NCBI GenBank assembly: GCA_028345295.1
Contig: JAOMDA010000003.1
Location: forward strand, 1 to 64,000
Length of the DNA stretch: 64,000 nucleotides
Source of the DNA: Candidatus Nitrosopelagicus sp.
GTDB taxonomy: Archaea; Thermoproteota; Nitrososphaeria; Nitrososphaerales; Nitrosopumilaceae
Direction: 5' to 3'
Positions 11,805 through 19,430 of the stretch are shown here, piece by piece. The notes under the pieces are model-generated. The model was not told where the DNA came from and did no database searches. It saw nothing but the letters and a program-made list of their open reading frames with translations. The first letter of the stretch is position 1, and each line of letters starts with the position of its first letter. The position numbers were made by a program, and so were the translations under genes.

Positions 11805-13025
11805 ATGGTAATCAAGATAGGAATAATAGGAAAAACAAATACCGGTAAAACTACTTTTTTTAATTCTGCAACATTATCTTCTTCTGAAATTTCTACATAT
11901 CCTTTTACAACTAAAACACCTGAATCCTCTATCGCTAATGCAATTACACTATGTGTTCATATGGAGTTTAAAGTTCAAGACGAACCGAATAATTCTAAAT
12001 GTACAGATGGTTGGAGATATGTTCCTGTTGAATTAATTGATTTGCCTGGGTTAATTAAAGATGCATGGAAAGGAAAGGGTCTTGGCAATCAATTTCTTTC
12101 AATTGCAGCACAGTCAGATGCATTGTTACATGTAGTAGACTGTTCTGGCAGTATTGATGCATCTGGAAAAATTTCTGAGATTGGTACGGGTGATCCAGTT
12201 TCTGACTTTGCTGATATTGAAGAAGAGTTGATAATGTGGTATCAAAAAATTCTGGAAGGTAACAGAGATAAAGTGTCTAAAAACATCAATTCTGGAACTG
12301 AACTTGTTGATGCATTTACTGAACTCTACATGGGAATTGGTGTCAAAAAGAACCATGTTATTAATGCACTAAAGATATCTGAATTAGAAGAAAAGAAATT
12401 TGATGAATATGATTCAGAAGACACAAAACAGTTTGCAAAAATACTCAGAAAAATTTCAAAGCCAACACTAATTGTTGCAAATAAAATTGACATTCCTGGC
12501 GCGGATAAAAATTTTAATCGTCTTCGTGAACGATATAATGAAGTAATTACTGTTCCAGCAAGTGCAGATAGTGAATTAACACTTAGACGCGCTGAACAAC
12601 AGCAACTAATTAAATATTCACCAGGTTCTGAGCAATTTGAAATTGTTAATCCTGAAAAATTAAATGCCAAACAAAAGGTAGCTCTTGATTTTATCAAAAA
12701 AGACATTATGGGTGAATATATGAGAACTGGTGTACAATTTGCAATCAATGTAACTGTTTTCAAATTATTAAAAATGAATTCTATTTATCCTGTTGCTAAC
12801 GAAGATACACTTTCTGATAAAAAGGGAAGAGTGTTACCAGATTTGATTTTAGTCAAGGAGGGTGCAACCATAAAAGATCTGGCAAATGAAATTCACACGG
12901 GGTTGTCAAAAGGATTACTATATGGAAAAGATTTACGCTATAATCTTAGGCTTCCAACTCACTATCAGCTTAGAGATCGTGATGTAATTTCTTTGGTAAG
13001 TGCAACAAAGAAAGCATCAAGTTAA
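11805..13025 (+). CDS. ychF: YchF/Obg-family GTP-binding protein with TGS domain
   Basis: A 406-aa P-loop GTPase of the OBG-HflX superfamily. The Walker A motif GKTNTGKTT is at 9-17, the G3 motif DLPG near 77, NKID near 226 and the Obg-like helical insertion lies between. The C-terminal TGS domain (about 335-400) ends in RDRDVISLVSATKK. Such proteins bind ribosomes and are thought to act in translation control. The ATG follows an A/T-rich divergent intergenic region shared with the Rieske gene. The next gene begins 14 nt downstream, pointing to a translation-linked operon. Confidence 0.9.
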   Translation: MVIKIGIIGKTNTGKTTFFNSATLSSSEISTYPFTTKTPESSIANAITLCVHMEFKVQDEPNNSKCTDGWRYVPVELIDLPGLIKDAWKGKGLGNQFLSIAAQSDALLHVVDCSGSIDASGKISEIGTGDPVSDFADIEEELIMWYQKILEGNRDKVSKNINSGTELVDAFTELYMGIGVKKNHVINALKISELEEKKFDEYDSEDTKQFAKILRKISKPTLIVANKIDIPGADKNFNRLRERYNEVITVPASADSELTLRRAEQQQLIKYSPGSEQFEIVNPEKLNAKQKVALDFIKKDIMGEYMRTGVQFAINVTVFKLLKMNSIYPVANEDTLSDKKGRVLPDLILVKEGATIKDLANEIHTGLSKGLLYGKDLRYNLRLPTHYQLRDRDVISLVSATKKASS

Positions 13026-13038
13026 AAATTATTTTGAT

Positions 13039-13956
13039 ATGAAATCTGTAAATTTTACTATTCTTGGAGAGCAATCTATTGCTAATGATTTTGGAAAAAA
13101 AGGAACATCAACAGATCTTACATTGTATGACAGAAAAGAATCTGATGTTATCAGAACATGGGTGGTTCCAAATGGATTCCCAGAAAAAATTCAACCTCTG
13201 TTTCAATCAATTTACTTATCAGAATATGTGATATTTTATGTTGCATCTTTAGATAAATTTACAGGAGAACAAATTATTGCACTAGATTCATTAGGAAAAA
13301 AGAATGGTATACTAAGTCATTCATATGATGTTGATGAAACAAGATTGAAGACAATGATTAAAGGAACAGTATTAGAGCAATACATGAAAGTTGATTTACC
13401 GAACCTTAAAGATGAGATATTAAAGTTTCCAGTTATACAAAAAGATGGAAACCCATGTATTGTAATAGATCATTGTTTTGACGTGAAGGGTGTTGGTACA
13501 GTAGTCCTTGGGAAATTAGTATCTGGTAAAATCAATCAGTATGATAAACTGATTCATCTTCCATCAAAGACAGAAGCTATGGTAAAATCAATACAAATGC
13601 ATGATGATGATGTAAAAGAAGCAGTATCACCAGCACGTGTTGGACTTTCCCTGAAGAATGTTAAACCAGATGCAATTTCACGTGGGGATATATTATCTAC
13701 AGATGACTCGATAAAAATTCTGGATGAATTAGTATTGGATTTCAAACAAAATCAGTTTTATAAAAAAACAATTTCTGAAAATGAAATGTGCTTAGTAAGT
13801 GTCGGAATGCAAGTGAAGGCTGGAAAGTTTCTGTCAATTTCACCAGTAAAACTGAAGCTTGACAAACCAATTGTTATTTTACCGCATGATATCTGTATTT
13901 TATTAAAACCAGAATCTCAATCAATTAGAATCATTGGGAGTGGAAAGATTCAGTGA
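13039..13956 (+). CDS. SelB/EF-Tu-like translation factor paralogue without GTPase motifs
   Basis: The 305-aa protein resembles archaeal SelB/EF-Tu. The N-terminal domain keeps the G-domain outline (MKSVNFTILGEQSIANDF, IFYVASLD) but lacks a P-loop lysine and the NKxD box, so it should not bind GTP normally. From about residue 125 it has an EF-Tu domain 2 (GVGTVVLGKLVSGKINQYDKL, then GLSLKNVKPDAISRGDIL) and a domain 3-like tail. It matches my memory of the archaeal SelB-like (aSelBL) group. The ATG at 13039 was chosen because an upstream in-frame ATG would overlap the YchF gene. Role unknown. Confidence 0.75.
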   Translation: MKSVNFTILGEQSIANDFGKKGTSTDLTLYDRKESDVIRTWVVPNGFPEKIQPLFQSIYLSEYVIFYVASLDKFTGEQIIALDSLGKKNGILSHSYDVDETRLKTMIKGTVLEQYMKVDLPNLKDEILKFPVIQKDGNPCIVIDHCFDVKGVGTVVLGKLVSGKINQYDKLIHLPSKTEAMVKSIQMHDDDVKEAVSPARVGLSLKNVKPDAISRGDILSTDDSIKILDELVLDFKQNQFYKKTISENEMCLVSVGMQVKAGKFLSISPVKLKLDKPIVILPHDICILLKPESQSIRIIGSGKIQ

Positions 13957-14072
13957 CTCCAGCACGGTCTTGTCCAATTTGCCCTAATTGTGGCTCTAAA
14001 AAATTTATTCGCATTGAATCAAATCAGATCAGAGTTCAATGTGCTAATTGTAAAAAAATCATAAGTATTTAG
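13953..14072 (+). CDS. zinc-ribbon microprotein, 39 aa
   Basis: Starts at GTG 13953, overlapping the TGA of the SelB-like gene (GTGA), which argues for translational coupling. The 39 aa contain two zinc-binding pairs (CPNC at 10-13 and CANC at 30-33) separated by a short beta hairpin, the layout of a minimal zinc ribbon as in RNA-polymerase or ribosome-associated proteins. It ends next to the convergent gene at 14073. Function unknown; context suggests translation. Confidence 0.65.
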   Translation: MTPARSCPICPNCGSKKFIRIESNQIRVQCANCKKIISI

Positions 14073-14336
14073 TTATTTACCCAAACACTCTGCTAAATCT
14101 GTATGAAACTTACTTGCTTGATAATCATTTAGATTATCATCTTTATCTTCAAGTGCAAATTTTTCCATCTCGTTACATGTCCAATTCTCCCAAATTCGTG
14201 GGTTTGAGACATTTTTTTCGTAAAAATTAATTCCTATAATGCTTGCAGGGATTATAACTGCAAAAGCAGATATTATCAGAATTTTCAAAAATTTTGGATT
14301 TTCAGTTATCATATAATTATCAAAGTACTTTACCAA
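14073..14336 (-). CDS. single-pass membrane protein, 87 aa
   Basis: One transmembrane helix (about residues 18-36, LKILIISAFAVIIPASIIG) followed by a polar, acidic C-terminal domain with two Cys (WTCNEMEKF and DLAECLGK), probably outside the membrane. The TTG at 14336 is the longest start. The ATG at 14312 has an A/T box about 26 nt upstream and may be the real leaderless start. I do not recognise it beyond a thaumarchaeal-looking small membrane protein. Confidence 0.6.
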   Translation of the reverse strand: MVKYFDNYMITENPKFLKILIISAFAVIIPASIIGINFYEKNVSNPRIWENWTCNEMEKFALEDKDDNLNDYQASKFHTDLAECLGK

Positions 14337-14429
14337 TTAATGAACCTATGACACATGGTAATTCTACAAACACCTAAAGTGTTGGCTATACATCGATTTT
14401 TTTCTTGGTTAAATTTGAATTTAATAATA

Positions 14430-14792
14430 TCATATTCCTTTTTCCAATGAGCGTAAAGCCTTGATGTTAGTAATTTCTATGTCGCTACTCATTGTAATGA
14501 TTTTAGATAGTTTTGGTTTAGCTTTTTCACCTAGCCTTAATACCAATTTTCCCTTATACTGAATATCTAGAGTTACACCATCTTTTTTTAGAGTTTTTGC
14601 AAGATCCTTGGCATCACTTAATTTCTTTAATGCACTTTTTTTACCAGAAATTTTTACAGGCATTGATATAATATTTACAACTCTATCATAATCTCTTGTA
14701 GTAAATTCTATAGAGGGTTTTTTGCCTTCAGAAATTTTTACACTGCCTTTTGTTAGTGAAATTAAAAAATTGGCAGGGAGTTTTGATTTCAT
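14430..14792 (-). CDS. hypothetical protein, 120 aa (second gene of a MEDS-adjacent operon)
   Basis: A small basic soluble protein with many Lys and beta-strand-like segments (VSITKGSV-like N-terminus, GVTLDIQYKGKLVLRLGEKAKP). No known domain recognised. It follows the 61-aa gene at 14805-14990 by 12 nt and is presumably transcribed with it from the promoter inside the left inverted repeat (15007-15036). That promoter copy is shared with the operon starting at 16069, so co-regulation is likely. Confidence 0.6.
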   Translation of the reverse strand: MKSKLPANFLISLTKGSVKISEGKKPSIEFTTRDYDRVVNIISMPVKISGKKSALKKLSDAKDLAKTLKKDGVTLDIQYKGKLVLRLGEKAKPKLSKIITMSSDIEITNIKALRSLEKGI

Positions 14793-14804
14793 TTTCCCCC
14801 ATAC

Positions 14805-14990
14805 CTATTTGGTTGTTATAGTCAGTTTTCCTGTTAGGGCCACAGTTCCTGTTGGCTGTTTTTTACCATTTCTTTCGACTACACCATTCATCTCAAGGTT
14901 GTCAAATTCATAGGTAATGGCTGCATGCTTTGCAGTCAGTTTATCAAAAACTTCTGCCAAGAGGTTTGCCCATTCTTGTTCTTCTGTCAT
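14805..14990 (-). CDS. hypothetical protein, 61 aa (first gene of a MEDS-adjacent operon)
   Basis: A 61-aa protein starting MTEEQEWANLLAEVFDKL, with an amphipathic N-terminal helix followed by beta-strand segments (GTVALTGKLTITTK). No family recognised. The ATG at 14990 lies about 25 nt from the TATA-like TTATAA inside the repeat, which fits a leaderless message. It is divergent from the winged-helix gene at 15146. Confidence 0.6.
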   Translation of the reverse strand: MTEEQEWANLLAEVFDKLTAKHAAITYEFDNLEMNGVVERNGKKQPTGTVALTGKLTITTK

Positions 14991-15006
14991 AAAATAGAAT
15001 TAATTT

Positions 15007-15036
15007 TTGTGTTATAATGCGTGATGAAGCTAAGTA
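15007..15036. repeat. left copy of an inverted promoter repeat
   Basis: This 30-nt stretch matches 29 of 30 bases of the reverse complement of 16023-16052; 15012-15036 is a perfect 25-nt match. It contains TTATAATGCG followed by TGATGAAGCTAAGTA. A further 9-nt match (ACTCACCAT, 15036-15044) follows, offset by an 11-nt gap in the right copy. The TATA-like core sits about 25 nt before the ATG of the minus-strand gene at 14990. Confidence 0.9.
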
Positions 15037-15145
15037 CTCACCATAGTTATTATAGAATAGTTGGCACTAAGTGAGAAATTTACTGTTTGGTCGTATCATC
15101 CATCAGCGTTAGAATATATATACAATGCAAAATAATTTTCGGTCA

Positions 15146-15430
15146 GTGGCTAAAGAGAGACGATCAAAAATTCAATTGTATTATGACATTGTATCTGCAA
15201 TAGTAGAGGATAGTCAAAATAATGATGCAGTCTCCCCAACACGGATCCAATTCAAATGTAATACATCATATGATAAATTAACCAAATATCTAGAGGAAAT
15301 GAAAGACAGGCAGATTATTGAAAAAGAAAAACCAATTAAAATCACTGAAAAAGGTATGAAATTCCATCAGGATTATTCCAAAATTAACGAGTTGATTTTA
15401 GATGTCAGTAAACAGATTACGGCAGAGTAA
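15146..15430 (+). CDS. winged-helix transcriptional regulator
   Basis: A small winged-helix DNA-binding protein of the type abundant in thaumarchaea (RRSKIQLYYDIVSAI, then a recognition region TSYDKLTKYLEEMKDRQII and wing EKPIKITEKGMKFH). I prefer GTG 15146 (94 aa) because the TATA-like ATATATATA at 15114-15122 is then about 28 nt upstream. The ATG at 15125 would add seven residues but sits on top of that box. It overlaps the convergent MEDS gene by 14 nt. It is the natural candidate to bind the flanking inverted repeats. Confidence 0.8.
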   Translation: MAKERRSKIQLYYDIVSAIVEDSQNNDAVSPTRIQFKCNTSYDKLTKYLEEMKDRQIIEKEKPIKITEKGMKFHQDYSKINELILDVSKQITAE

Positions 15431-16004
15431 ACATTTCAGAGCCTTTATCCTTTCTGAGAAATATAATTGCTTTATGTGAATCAAGTAATTGATTTAGGAA
15501 TCTAGCACGAATTGCATCATCTATCTGGTTTACCTCAAACGAGCATACAAAATTCCCATTAATTTTATGGAAATTATCGTCTACACACTGCTCAATTTCT
15601 GCCATTCTGTCTGTTTTTTTTTCTGTGTTGAAGTCAAAATAATGGGTTGATACGACTCTAACCTTACTATTCTCTGGTAATGAATCAACCTTATCAAGAA
15701 TCATTTTGGAATAATCCTCAAATCTTTCTGGTATTTTAACAATATGGATTAATTCCTTATTAGCTTCTGTGTCAATACCAAATTCTTTCATCTCATCAGC
15801 AATTTTTTCTGGATTTTGAGTTGTATAGAAACAGTGTTCTTTTTTGGCAAGTCCTTTATTTATAAATCCGTATTCAGTATTTTTCGTTTCTTTTCCACCT
15901 TCATGAAAAAGTACAACATGCGTTCGTTCTAGTTTTTCTAAGTACTGATCTACGTCTGTCATGAAACTTTTGATACTATCATGACTATAACCTACACTCA
16001 CCAT
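15417..16004 (-). CDS. MEDS-domain sensor protein
   Basis: The 195-aa protein fits the MEDS domain (methanogen/methylotroph DcmR sensory domain): HVVLFHEGG, then GFINKGLAKKEHCFYTT, a central RVVSTHYFDFN segment and a C-terminal ALIFLR-like strand. MEDS domains were predicted to sense small organic ligands and usually sit beside a DNA-binding domain. Here the partner is the separate winged-helix gene converging on it. The longest start is the ATG at 16004, inside a 20-bp palindrome. The ATG at 15962 has a TTATAG box about 25 nt upstream and is an equally good leaderless start. Confidence 0.8.
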   Translation of the reverse strand: MVSVGYSHDSIKSFMTDVDQYLEKLERTHVVLFHEGGKETKNTEYGFINKGLAKKEHCFYTTQNPEKIADEMKEFGIDTEANKELIHIVKIPERFEDYSKMILDKVDSLPENSKVRVVSTHYFDFNTEKKTDRMAEIEQCVDDNFHKINGNFVCSFEVNQIDDAIRARFLNQLLDSHKAIIFLRKDKGSEMFTLP

Positions 16005-16013
16005 GGTGAGTGT
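15994..16013. promoter_or_regulatory. 20-bp perfect palindrome over the MEDS start codon
   Basis: ACACTCACCATGGTGAGTGT is its own reverse complement and contains the possible MEDS start codon at its centre. It is either an operator or an RNA hairpin hiding the start. Half of it (ACTCACCAT) recurs at 15036-15044 near the left repeat. Confidence 0.75.
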
Positions 16014-16022
16014 TTTAGTACT

Positions 16023-16052
16023 TACTTAGCTTCATCACGCATTATAAGACAA
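16023..16052. repeat. right copy of an inverted promoter repeat
   Basis: Inverted partner of 15007-15036, with 29 of 30 bases identical. Read on the plus strand it ends in CGCATTATAA, a TATA-like core about 26 nt before the ATG at 16069, so it probably drives the downstream operon as a leaderless message. Read on the minus strand it also lies upstream of the MEDS gene. Confidence 0.9.
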
Positions 16053-16068
16053 CTGTGAATACATACAC

Positions 16069-16254
16069 ATGGAACTTAGATCAGAGTCACAAAACTCGTT
16101 TGCCATTGAAGAGGTAAGTTGTGTTTTCTGTGATAGATTACTTGATGATCATTCTACCGATCAATTAAAACAATGCATGGCAAAACATCTAGAGGTACAA
16201 AATATTTTACAGGGGGCAATTGGTGACGGTTCATCAATTTGTGAGACTGAGTAA
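16069..16254 (+). CDS. small zinc-finger-like protein, 61 aa (operon leader gene)
   Basis: A 61-aa protein with a Cys pair CVFC (18-21) and a following H-x-Q-x-C / AKH region (Cys36, His40) that could complete a zinc site. It is the first gene of an operon running to 19524 and starts without a Shine-Dalgarno sequence 26 nt after a TATA-like box, whereas the genes behind it have GGAG motifs. No family recognised. Confidence 0.6.
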   Translation: MELRSESQNSFAIEEVSCVFCDRLLDDHSTDQLKQCMAKHLEVQNILQGAIGDGSSICETE

Positions 16255-16266
16255 GGAGTGAATGAT

Positions 16267-16848
16267 ATGACAGCTACACAAACTAAAATGACAAAAATTG
16301 ATTTTATGAAAGCTGGTGCAGGAGCTGGCTTAATTGCAGGATTTGCTTTGTTTTCTTCATTTTTTGCAATTGATCAGATGTTGGATATTCCAACAGGTAC
16401 ATTCTACAAAACTATCGGAGTAACGATGGGTGTGGATGAATCACTTGGAATTGCATTAGGTTTCCTGTCACATATGGGTGTGGCTGCATTAATTGGGTCC
16501 ATGTATTTACTATCATCAAGTATTTGGAGATTTTTCAGATTGGTAACAGTACCAAAGGCAATTATGACTGGTGTATTAACCGGGTTAATAGTATTCACTT
16601 TAGCATTTTTACCAATTCATATGTTTATCATGACACCAATGATGGAAGTTGAATTAATTATAACTGACATATCAGACTTTGACTTGAAAGAACAAGAAGC
16701 TTTGGCAACATTATTGTTCAATAGTGACAAAATCTACTACCATTCATTAATTCTCCATATAATTTTTGGATCAATTATGGGACTTATGGGTGGATTTTTC
16801 TTGCATGAAGAATATGAAAAAGTTCCAAGAAAAGGAGGAATATTCTAA
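16267..16848 (+). CDS. multi-pass membrane protein, 193 aa
   Basis: Four or five hydrophobic helices (around AGAGLIAGFALFSSFFAI, SHMGVAALIGSMYLL, MTGVLTGLIVFTLAFLPI, SLILHIIFGSIMGLMGGFFL) separated by short loops, with an acidic extracytoplasmic-looking loop (EVELIITDISDFDLKEQE). No transporter family recognised. I chose the ATG at 16267 because GGAG at 16255-16258 lies at a good distance; a GTG three codons upstream would sit on that motif. The stop overlaps the next ATG (TAATG), indicating coupling. Confidence 0.7.
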   Translation: MTATQTKMTKIDFMKAGAGAGLIAGFALFSSFFAIDQMLDIPTGTFYKTIGVTMGVDESLGIALGFLSHMGVAALIGSMYLLSSSIWRFFRLVTVPKAIMTGVLTGLIVFTLAFLPIHMFIMTPMMEVELIITDISDFDLKEQEALATLLFNSDKIYYHSLILHIIFGSIMGLMGGFFLHEEYEKVPRKGGIF

Positions 16849-17231
16849 TGGACAAAAAAGCACCAGACCTTTTTGTTTCCTCCCCAAACAAAGATAAACT
16901 TCAGGCATTATACGAGAGTTTCATTTCTAATGTAAGAGAGATAGCACCAAAAGTTGACGCAATTTTACTTTTGAAAGCAATGAGATTGGAAAGAATGTTC
17001 CCTGGTGATCTACCACATGTCCATTTGGAGATTGACTTTACAGATGATGTTGATATTAATATTCCAAAATATCAAATAAGTGAAAAATTTACAGTTGCAA
17101 CATCGGTTCATCGATGGGAAAAAACTAAATTAGTTGTTTCTGGAAAAATGTCAGTTGATAATATTTTAGAAATTGCAGAACATGAGAAGGTTATAAAAAT
17201 AGTTGGGTACGCTAACGCGTCACATTATTGA
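16848..17231 (+). CDS. hypothetical protein, 127 aa
   Basis: Soluble protein with an N-terminal helical region and a C-terminal alpha/beta part (LPHVHLEIDFTDDVDINIPK, VATSVHRWEKTKLVVSGKM, EHEKVIKIVGYANASHY). I do not recognise a family. Its start overlaps the previous stop and is preceded by GGAGG, so it is translated as part of the operon. Confidence 0.65.
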   Translation: MDKKAPDLFVSSPNKDKLQALYESFISNVREIAPKVDAILLLKAMRLERMFPGDLPHVHLEIDFTDDVDINIPKYQISEKFTVATSVHRWEKTKLVVSGKMSVDNILEIAEHEKVIKIVGYANASHY

Positions 17232-17244
17232 TGGAGTGAATGGT

Positions 17245-17454
17245 ATGGGCGCATCATGTAAGGGGATTTGTTTACAATTCGAACCAACAAGAATTCCAAA
17301 TGCAAGAAAGTATCAGGAAGGATTGAAAAGATGTAGTTGGTGTGATATATGGTTTAAAACTGAAGAGATTCGTTGTCCATGCTGCAGAATGATACTGCGA
17401 GTAAAAGCAAGAGGTTCACGAACTAAAAATATGGAGGTTAGTCAAGTTGCTTAA
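17245..17454 (+). CDS. zinc-ribbon protein, 69 aa
   Basis: A basic protein with a zinc ribbon made by CSWC (residues 30-33) and CPCC (44-47), in RCSWCDIWFKTEEIRCPCC. The N-terminus GASCKGICLQFEPTRIPNARKYQ with two more Cys is typical of a small thaumarchaeal protein family seen beside regulators. The ATG at 17245 follows GGAG at a good distance; earlier in-frame starts would overlap the preceding gene. Likely nucleic-acid binding, but this is inference. Confidence 0.7.
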   Translation: MGASCKGICLQFEPTRIPNARKYQEGLKRCSWCDIWFKTEEIRCPCCRMILRVKARGSRTKNMEVSQVA

Positions 17455-18028
17455 TGGAAGCCTAATAGATACAGTGTGGGAGAAATTCCCTGAAAAAAGA
17501 GATGTTCCAGAACAAGGGGATGAAATTTTTACAAAATGGAATTTTCAAGATTTTCAAGATGGTGGATATTTAAATTTTAGAGCAGACAGATCTGATCTTT
17601 TTGCATTGAGTATAATGGTTGAAAATTATGCTGCAAAACACAAATACCCACTTTTAGCATCATTTGAAGACGAAAGTAGGTACAAGTTTGTTGAAGATAG
17701 ATACATCAAATTAATGAAGTCTATTCCACGAGTTTGGGTTATTGGAAATTTCAATAATCCAAATCTAGCTCAAAGTGTACCATCAAGTTGTAAAGTGATT
17801 AGCTGTATAGGTACTCCGTTATCTACAGTTTGGGCAGTAGTAACACGTGGAAGTGATGGTCCTGTAGGATTGATTGCAGATGAAGTAGGTAATAAGAAGT
17901 TCAAAGGATTTTTCACAACTAATCCTAACGTTATGCAGTATGCAGTTGACTTGATTGCAGAAACGCTTGTCACAAAATTTGATTTTAACAAAGCAGAATA
18001 TACTGATGGTGGGAAAGGCGGCTACTAA
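17447..18028 (+). CDS. DICT-like sensory domain protein
   Basis: The 193-aa protein resembles the DICT sensory domain: PLLASFEDESRYKFVEDRYIKL, RVWVIGNFN, GTPLSTVWAVVTRG, VGLIADEV and a closing FKGFFTTNPNVMQYAVDLI. DICT domains accompany diguanylate cyclases, two-component systems and MerR-type regulators and have been linked to light or stress responses. The start is TTG 17447, overlapping the upstream stop by 8 nt with GGAGGT 8 nt before it. The presence of both MEDS and DICT modules here suggests a signalling circuit. The assignment is from remembered motif pattern, not a search. Confidence 0.55.
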   Translation: MLNGSLIDTVWEKFPEKRDVPEQGDEIFTKWNFQDFQDGGYLNFRADRSDLFALSIMVENYAAKHKYPLLASFEDESRYKFVEDRYIKLMKSIPRVWVIGNFNNPNLAQSVPSSCKVISCIGTPLSTVWAVVTRGSDGPVGLIADEVGNKKFKGFFTTNPNVMQYAVDLIAETLVTKFDFNKAEYTDGGKGGY

Positions 18029-18044
18029 TTCCTGGAGTTAAGAT

Positions 18045-19430
18045 TTGTCACAAAAATTAGAGATTACAAACTTCAAACAAACTAAACCATATTCAATTTT
18101 AGTAACTGGTGCAACTGGCTTTATCGGTAGCAAATTAGTAGATAGACTCACCAGTTCTGGTTATACAGTAAAAGCCATGTCAAGAAGGCCGGTTTCAGAT
18201 ATACCAGGTGTCAAATTTGTCAAGGCTGATGCATTAATTGATGGTGGGTTAGAAAATGCTTTAACTGGTGTAGAAGTTGCATATTATCTCCTTCATTCAA
18301 TGGAGGGTCATAAGAAAGAATGGGAAAATTTTGATAAACGTGAATCAATTCAAGCAGAAAACTTTCTAAAGGCTGCAACAAAAGCAGGGGTAAAAAGAAT
18401 AATCTATCTTGGTGGATTGGTTAATGACGGTTTAGAACTATCTAGACATATGAAAAGCAGGAAAGTTGTTGGTGATATCTTGTCATCAGGTAACATTCCA
18501 GTAACACAGCTTCGCGCATCTATCATCATTGGCGCACAAGGTGGCTCTTTTGCGATGTTACGATATCTTGTTGAAAGATTACGTGTAATGGTATGTCCAA
18601 AATGGGTTAAATCACTTGCACAGCCAATTTGTCTAGATGATGTAGTTGAATATTTAGCTAGATGTATGGATATACAGGAGACATCAGGAAAGATTTTTGA
18701 TATTGGAGGTCCTGAAAAAGTAAATTATGAACAGATGATGCGTATCTACTCTGCTATTCTTAATAGAAATTTGTTTGTATTACAAATTCCATTTTTAACA
18801 ACAAAACTTTCATCATACTGGATTGATTTGGTAACTCCTGTAAAGGCATCACTTGCAAGACCATTGGTTGAAAGCTTAATTCATGATTCTGTGGTTCACG
18901 ATGAATCTATTAACAAATACATAAATTTTGAATTAAAATCACTTCATGAGTCAATTATAATTGCACAAGAAGATATGCTAGAAATTGAGGAAAAAAATAA
19001 AAATTATAAGTTTTCTGAAAAAATTGGATTCCCAATTAATCAAAAACTATTATCAGTCTCTTTGATATTAATGGCAATAATAGGAACCACATATTATTGG
19101 CTTGATAACAGGCAGGATGTTTTTGAAATTACTTGGTTAATTGGATCAATAGTTTGGTTTGTAGCAATTGGTTTTGGAATTTTATTCGTAATGCAGAAAA
19201 CTAGACTTGGGTATCTTATTGCAGGACTATTATCATGGGTAACAATTGCATTTTGGCTCTTCGATAACTTCTATGTGATATTTGACATGTCTTTGATTGC
19301 ACAAGAGCCAAATATCTTTATGACAATTAGGAACTTTCTTGGTGTGACAGTTGCAGGGCTTGCAGTGTTTTCGTCCCATAATGTCTTCCACAAGATTAGA
19401 ACCTATCAGACTAAGGGAAAGAAAATTTGA
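18045..19430 (+). CDS. NAD(P)-binding SDR/NmrA-type protein fused to a four-helix membrane domain
   Basis: Residues about 15-310 form an extended/atypical short-chain dehydrogenase: glycine motif VTGATGFIGSKL, MSRRP, VEVAYYLLHSM, IIYLGGL and a C-terminal substrate region. The active Tyr-x3-Lys motif is not obvious (YLGGLVNDG instead), as in NmrA-like members. Residues about 335-450 add four hydrophobic segments, so it is membrane anchored. The start is TTG at 18045 with GGAG upstream. It follows the DICT gene by 16 nt. A redox-sensing or quinone/isoprenoid-reductase role is possible, but the substrate is unknown. Confidence 0.7.
   Translation: MSQKLEITNFKQTKPYSILVTGATGFIGSKLVDRLTSSGYTVKAMSRRPVSDIPGVKFVKADALIDGGLENALTGVEVAYYLLHSMEGHKKEWENFDKRESIQAENFLKAATKAGVKRIIYLGGLVNDGLELSRHMKSRKVVGDILSSGNIPVTQLRASIIIGAQGGSFAMLRYLVERLRVMVCPKWVKSLAQPICLDDVVEYLARCMDIQETSGKIFDIGGPEKVNYEQMMRIYSAILNRNLFVLQIPFLTTKLSSYWIDLVTPVKASLARPLVESLIHDSVVHDESINKYINFELKSLHESIIIAQEDMLEIEEKNKNYKFSEKIGFPINQKLLSVSLILMAIIGTTYYWLDNRQDVFEITWLIGSIVWFVAIGFGILFVMQKTRLGYLIAGLLSWVTIAFWLFDNFYVIFDMSLIAQEPNIFMTIRNFLGVTVAGLAVFSSHNVFHKIRTYQTKGKKI

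Follow-up and report, generated by a model that had tools for sequence, protein, structure and literature searches.

The closest described counterparts of the locus analysed here are the CarH/LitR B12 light regulons of Thermus, Myxococcus and Pseudomonas, the Sso10a family of winged-helix proteins (PDB 1r7j, 1xsx) and the DcmR-type signalling proteins that carry a MEDS domain. AdoCbl photoreceptors are recognized by the motifs Wx9EH and D/ExHx2G (PMC9304148), a photolyase, a short-chain dehydrogenase and an FAD oxidoreductase are among the genes listed for LitR regions of bacteria (PMC9758184), and MEDS is counted among the archaeal sensor domains, in the iKaiC class (PMC5847659). Searches on Nitrosopelagicus regulons, archaeal CarH/LitR and MEDS with a winged helix found no description of the present system in the open-access literature, outside which most subscription journals fall, and no light-sensing regulator of ammonia-oxidizing archaea is described in the open-access literature searched. 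Light inhibition of ammonia oxidation itself is well documented, and it bears on where marine nitrification occurs.

We analysed a stretch of 64,000 nucleotides from Candidatus Nitrosopelagicus sp. (the window), and consider it likely that genes in and beyond it form a small regulon under an Sso10a-like winged-helix/MEDS pair, probably tied to a light response. Taken singly, the parts of this system all belong to known kinds; their combination, which joins a stand-alone MEDS protein, an Sso10a-like regulator, a likely palindromic operator and a non-MerR CarH-like sensor in ammonia-oxidizing archaea, was not found in the open-access literature searched. With the CarH/LitR regulons it shares a B12 photoreceptor domain with Wx9EH and D/ExHx2G, and a gene set with an FAD-dependent oxidoreductase, an SDR-type enzyme and, in some relatives (G047), a photolyase. 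Unlike them, it is an archaeal system without MerR and with TATA promoters, has an additional winged-helix/MEDS pair with its own palindrome, and lacks a photolyase in the window's genome. Likeness to the Sso10a family lies in a sequence match and an NCBIfam match (below cut-off), but the archaeal winged helix goes with a single sensor gene and a single palindrome, a pattern suggestive of a specific regulator and not of a chromatin protein. Similarly, the MEDS protein resembles DcmR-type signalling proteins in its above-cut-off Pfam match, yet it stands alone, with a separate winged-helix partner and no fused HTH, kinase or REC domain.

An earlier note on this DNA had described a near-perfect 30-nt inverted repeat enclosing two convergent genes, for a winged-helix regulator and a MEDS sensor, and both observations hold. 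The arms (15007-15036 and 16023-16052) are inverted with respect to each other, 29/30 identical (97%) and 986 nt apart, and a 20-nt part of the arm, searched at up to 3 mismatches, matched just the two arm sites in the window (shuffles: mean 0.02 matches); the two genes are borne out by the open reading frames and by family matches. The start codons proposed for them have moved: the MEDS gene most likely begins not at 16004 but at ATG 15962, where its orthologs begin, and the winged-helix gene probably not at ATG 15125 but at GTG 15146, as orthologs align from residue 8 and a TATA box lies at 15115-15122. The features of the locus are collected in Table 1.

Table 1. Genes and candidate regulatory elements of the winged-helix/MEDS locus (window coordinates).
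Feature	Position	Strand	Basis or remark
left120, 120-aa conserved protein, left operon gene 2	14430..14792	-	ORF list, relatives
left61, 61-aa conserved protein, left operon gene 1	14805..14990	-	no Pfam or NCBIfam match
Putative TATA box TTATAA, left61	15012..15017	-	centre 24.5 nt before ATG 14990; sequence, inference
Left 25-nt core TACTTAGCTTCATCACGCATTATAA, left61 promoter	15012..15036	-	exact match; 1 substitution in G009, G028 before same gene
GGTGAGT half-site of palindromic candidate operator	15036..15042	-	sequence; relatives' left-gene promoters
TTGGCACTAA, box B variant	15061..15070	+	motif comparison with TTAGCACTAG
Sso10a-like winged-helix protein (HTH_45)	15146..15430	+	likely start GTG 15146
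MEDS-domain sensor	15417..15962	-	likely start ATG 15962, 42 nt from palindrome centre as in orthologs
TATA-like box TTATAG, MEDS gene	15985..15990	-	centre ~26 nt before ATG 15962; sequence, inference
Perfect 16-bp palindrome ACTCACCATGGTGAGT, candidate operator common to MEDS and right operon	15996..16011	.	genus alignment and search
Right 25-nt core, R61 promoter	16023..16047	+	inverted-repeat and core searches
Putative TATA box, R61	16042..16047	+	centre 24.5 nt before ATG 16069; sequence, inference
R61, 61-aa protein, right operon gene 1	16069..16254	+	divergent from MEDS in 14/16 MEDS-carrying genus genomes
Rmem, hydrophobic 196-aa protein	16258..16848	+	no family match
R127, conserved 127-aa protein	16848..17231	+	ORF list, relatives
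R75, small Cys-rich conserved protein	17245..17454	+	paralog in C2 half of gene set
p193, conserved protein	17447..18028	+	adjoins CarH-like gene in relatives
NAD(P)-binding epimerase/SDR-like protein, same gene set	18045..19430	+	family match, relatives

The inverted repeat is very probably a cis-regulatory promoter element and not the end of a mobile element. A search of the window's genome (G000; 1,072,999 bases, 92% complete) for the 25-nt core, which the earlier note had suggested, returned 3 matches at up to 3 mismatches, all of them exact, against 0 in the reversed control of that genome. The third copy, at C2:28056-28080 on another contig, is solitary, with no winged-helix or MEDS gene at its locus, and lies upstream of a gene for a secreted repeat protein (VPDWVKNNAGWW type). 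Rather than recurring at many unrelated promoters, which the earlier note had named as grounds for rejection, all three copies fall within one functionally linked gene set; the core stands at several promoters of linked genes and is conserved against diverged flanks, as a regulon element should be, and it very likely is an element of a small regulon. At each copy TTATAA lies ~24 nt upstream of the first ATG, which at the C2 copy belongs to a 12-codon frame, and a GTGAG half-site lies further upstream. Archaeal TATA boxes precede the start of the transcript by about 25 nt, and transcripts from the core promoters are probably leaderless, to judge from these spacings. The proposal that the arms are outward promoters placing both flanking operons under shared control has been strengthened to very probable by the identical element, the same start-codon spacing, its retention in two sister species and the third promoter.

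The shared block extends beyond the core at two of the promoters, those of left61 and C2, which are identical over 30 nt (GTGAGTACTTAGCTTCATCACGCATTATAA); at the R61 copy, a 12-nt insertion separates the half-site from the core. Downstream of the block, similarity between the flanks is not significant (shuffle test, p 0.06 to 0.81), and upstream of it the outcome varies, since the half-site is part of the sequence compared. Similarity thus ends at the block edges, and such sharp limits are to be expected of an element under selection. The 25-nt core is limited to three closely related genomes, the other MEDS-carrying relatives keeping the palindrome or box but not the core, and an exact 21-mer scan of genome contigs gave no match. 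A 3-mismatch match to the core at order level (G150) was dismissed as chance, since it falls within a reading frame on the opposite strand and has no neighbours in common.

The palindrome, which does not appear in the earlier note, sits between the sensor gene and the right-hand operon. In an alignment of the MEDS/R61 intergenic region from 16 genus genomes, ACTCACC(AT/TA)GGTGAGT is strictly kept; it occurs upstream of MEDS in 16/16 MEDS-carrying genus genomes, exactly in 12 and with 1-3 mismatches in the other 4, and among the 31 genomes searched exact copies are restricted to the MEDS/R61 locus. Its spacing to both genes is also nearly constant: in 8 genomes its centre and the R61 ATG are exactly 65 nt apart, and on the other side the distance to the MEDS ATG is 41-42 nt in most genomes. 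In the window it abuts the MEDS TATA box, and the R61 TATA box follows ~41 nt downstream of it. On this pattern of sequence conservation, the palindrome is likely an operator.

The left61 and C2 promoters carry the half-site only, without the full palindrome. The ACTCACC box is present in the left61 promoter of 14/14 MEDS-carrying genomes with a readable promoter and absent from that of G010, G015 and G051 (0/3), in which the MEDS gene was not found either; a further genome (G001), in which a contig end cuts off MEDS, has a one-mismatch box. This co-occurrence, drawn from few independent lineages and incomplete genomes (G010 63%, G015 91%), links the box to the MEDS/winged-helix pair.

The family assignments of the two proteins are as follows. 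The winged-helix protein matches Pfam HTH_45 (E 2.4e-12), the NCBIfam Sso10a family (9.6e-11, below the curated cut-off) and the Sso10a structure 1r7j in the PDB (2.9e-5, the match spanning 73 residues), and counts by sequence match as Sso10a-like. The MEDS protein matches Pfam PF14417 (E 3.2e-8; 34 bits against a gathering cut-off of 29.8) and is assigned to that domain family. Across the genus the winged-helix gene adjoins MEDS in either orientation; the gene flips and the pairing is kept.

Beside this pair, in Nitrosopelagicus relatives, in another genus (G090) and in Nitrosopumilus limneticus, directly lies a gene for a B12-binding protein (L004:6345-7202 on contig C2 of the window's genome; orthologs L100-L129), which is present in 54/151 related archaeal genomes. 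In the window's genome, the B12 gene and the pair are on different contigs. CarH proteins are the top PDB matches of the cobalamin half (3e-15), an AlphaFold model matches photocobilin and TtCarH structures, and Wx9EH occurs in 30/30 close orthologs together with a kept E-x-H-x2-G-type ligand motif, so that the protein carries the cobalamin motifs of CarH; in G090, the B12 protein encoded next to the pair lacks Wx9EH. No match to a MerR domain was found at the N-terminus, where a three-stranded sheet is predicted instead, one that resembles the start of some transposases. The B12 protein is, as far as these models and motifs go, CarH-like in its sensor half and not a CarH. In G047 (L136:7249-9397), a photolyase gene lies directly 3' of the CarH-like gene, with TTAGCACTAG ~50 nt upstream; no photolyase gene was found in the window's genome.

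The motif TTAGCACTAG, here box B, occurs throughout the family in most gene-set promoters, that of the B12 protein among them, and is a candidate site for this protein. For example, 4/6 exact genome copies in G026 lie within gene set promoters. The genome-wide count is modestly above that of the reversed control, and it is the placement within the gene set that gives the motif its weight. As a further observation, TTAGCACTAG/CTAGTGCYAA recurs in gene-set intergenic regions (L004, L094, L097, L130, L133, L137, L138), also in genomes without MEDS.

The genes flanking the pair and those around the C2 copy constitute one gene set, fused or split variously among relatives. Its members include SDR-like, FAD amine-oxidase-like and SRPBCC-like proteins, a WelO5-like 2OG oxygenase, a secreted repeat protein and the B12-binding protein, and the half located on contig C2 contains the third core copy, at a distance of 2.3 kb from the B12 gene. 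The 2OG-Fe(II) oxygenase (L004:1948-2721, L137:8262-9008), similar to the halogenase family WelO5, is found inside the conserved cluster. In several genomes, paralogs of TFIIB (TFB) adjoin the light-type gene set (L137:2416-3414, L138:7716-8648, L098:7751-8647).

Control of these genes by the winged-helix/MEDS pair, in which binding is what we infer, has about the same good probability as the reading as a whole. The winged-helix protein would bind the palindrome as a dimer, and also the half-sites with the core; its relatives are dimers. MEDS would sense a signal and modulate the winged-helix protein, whose targets would comprise the pair itself, R61-Rmem-R127-R75-p193-SDR, left61-left120 and the C2 operon. 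Where the palindrome abuts the MEDS TATA box it would provide autoregulation, and at 65 nt before R61 it would occupy an activator-like position. The signal chain would answer to light or photo-oxidative stress, a link to which we give slightly less than an even chance; it is suggested by the position of the pair next to a B12 protein with the AdoCbl-photoreceptor motifs of CarH, and by the resemblance of the gene set to LitR/CarH regulons (FAD oxidoreductase, SDR and, in some relatives, a linked photolyase). More speculatively, and with a chance of perhaps one in three, surface-ocean ammonia-oxidizing archaea might possess a two-layer light circuit, in which a B12 photoreceptor that combines the sensor half of CarH with a DNA-binding head not of the MerR type acts on TTAGCACTAG, the Sso10a-like/MEDS pair acts on ACTCACC-GGTGAGT, and both jointly control photoprotection genes. 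If the overall reading is right, it would supply specific operator sequences, a candidate B12 photoreceptor and a pair of regulator and sensor for ammonia-oxidizing archaea, and light control through B12 would then reach an archaeal DNA-binding protein outside the MerR type. It would also assign to a stand-alone MEDS with an Sso10a-like partner a target site that is testable in vitro.

How the two elements came to bracket the pair can be read from the sister genomes. In G009 and G028 the left element, with one substitution, precedes the same 61-aa gene, which lies elsewhere among other neighbours with no winged helix or MEDS beside it, and the right element, with at least 2 changes, is at the MEDS/R61 locus. 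G028 furthermore keeps the order of the window genes from 11805 to 19430, minus the left pair between gene 14073 and the winged-helix gene. Two element copies thus existed at separate loci, their facing arrangement in the window follows from the position of the left pair, and the bracketing of the regulator-sensor pair is secondary. The earlier note's idea of a self-contained module formed by in-place inversion-duplication is therefore not sustained, as these sisters carry the left pair with its element elsewhere while the winged-helix/MEDS genes keep their remaining neighbours. Its alternative, a non-autonomous mobile cassette with terminal inverted repeats, could draw on near-perfect 30-nt repeats around exactly two genes, but is the least probable reading by far: a solitary copy stands at the C2 promoter without the two genes, the left element occurs without a cassette in G009 and G028, and most relatives in the genus keep the pair without such repeats. 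The repeats are hence not confined to element ends, and nothing is seen to move as a unit, the winged-helix/MEDS/right-operon order of G028 being that of the window and only the left pair differing; moreover, each repeat lies at a fixed promoter distance from a start codon, and the ORFs of the region include no transposase. Recent promoter duplication or gene conversion, making the similarity a matter of copying with no functional meaning, is improbable too, if less extremely so. Exact identity over 25-30 nt between copies within one genome would fit it, as would the appearance of the third promoter as ~110 nt of extra sequence relative to G020, G010 and G026, but the sister species retain the block at both genes despite diverged flanks, and the similarity stops at its edges.

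Control by the winged-helix/MEDS pair has two main rivals, in which either a dedicated TFB or the B12 protein itself would do the regulating. A specialised TFB paralog that reads the upstream element and the TATA box (CACGCATTATAA), so that a common TFB and not the pair would unite the genes, is the likeliest of the alternatives and still unlikely. All three copies are indeed identical across the TATA box and the sequence next to it on the upstream side, and G026, G033 and G051 have TFIIB paralogs adjoining portions of the gene set; most of the identity, however, lies upstream of any BRE, the GTGAG half-site and the palindrome are left unexplained, and other genomes with MEDS retain the palindrome despite a different TATA region. 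Slightly less likely again, though a shade above mere copying, is control of the core by the CarH-like B12 protein, with the winged-helix/MEDS pair merely another target. The third core copy near the B12 gene speaks for it, as do the element-bearing genes that neighbour the B12 gene, but promoters of the B12 protein bear another motif, TTAGCACTAG, also in genomes that lack MEDS or core, and core and palindrome track MEDS rather than the B12 protein.

Two smaller features of the sequence may be added. The stretch L004:4000-4130 on contig C2 is a leader before the secreted-protein gene with ~110 nt more than in G020, G010 and G026, and the extra sequence holds the third core copy together with the 12-codon frame (MTKKDQACELIG), which overlaps the gene start; we do not claim that this promoter was copied along with the left61 start, a possibility raised by similar first codons (shuffle test, p = 0.06). 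Lastly, a perfect 16-nt inverted repeat, AGGATTATTCCAAAAT, at window positions 15369-15384 and 15703-15718, spans both convergent genes within their coding sequence.
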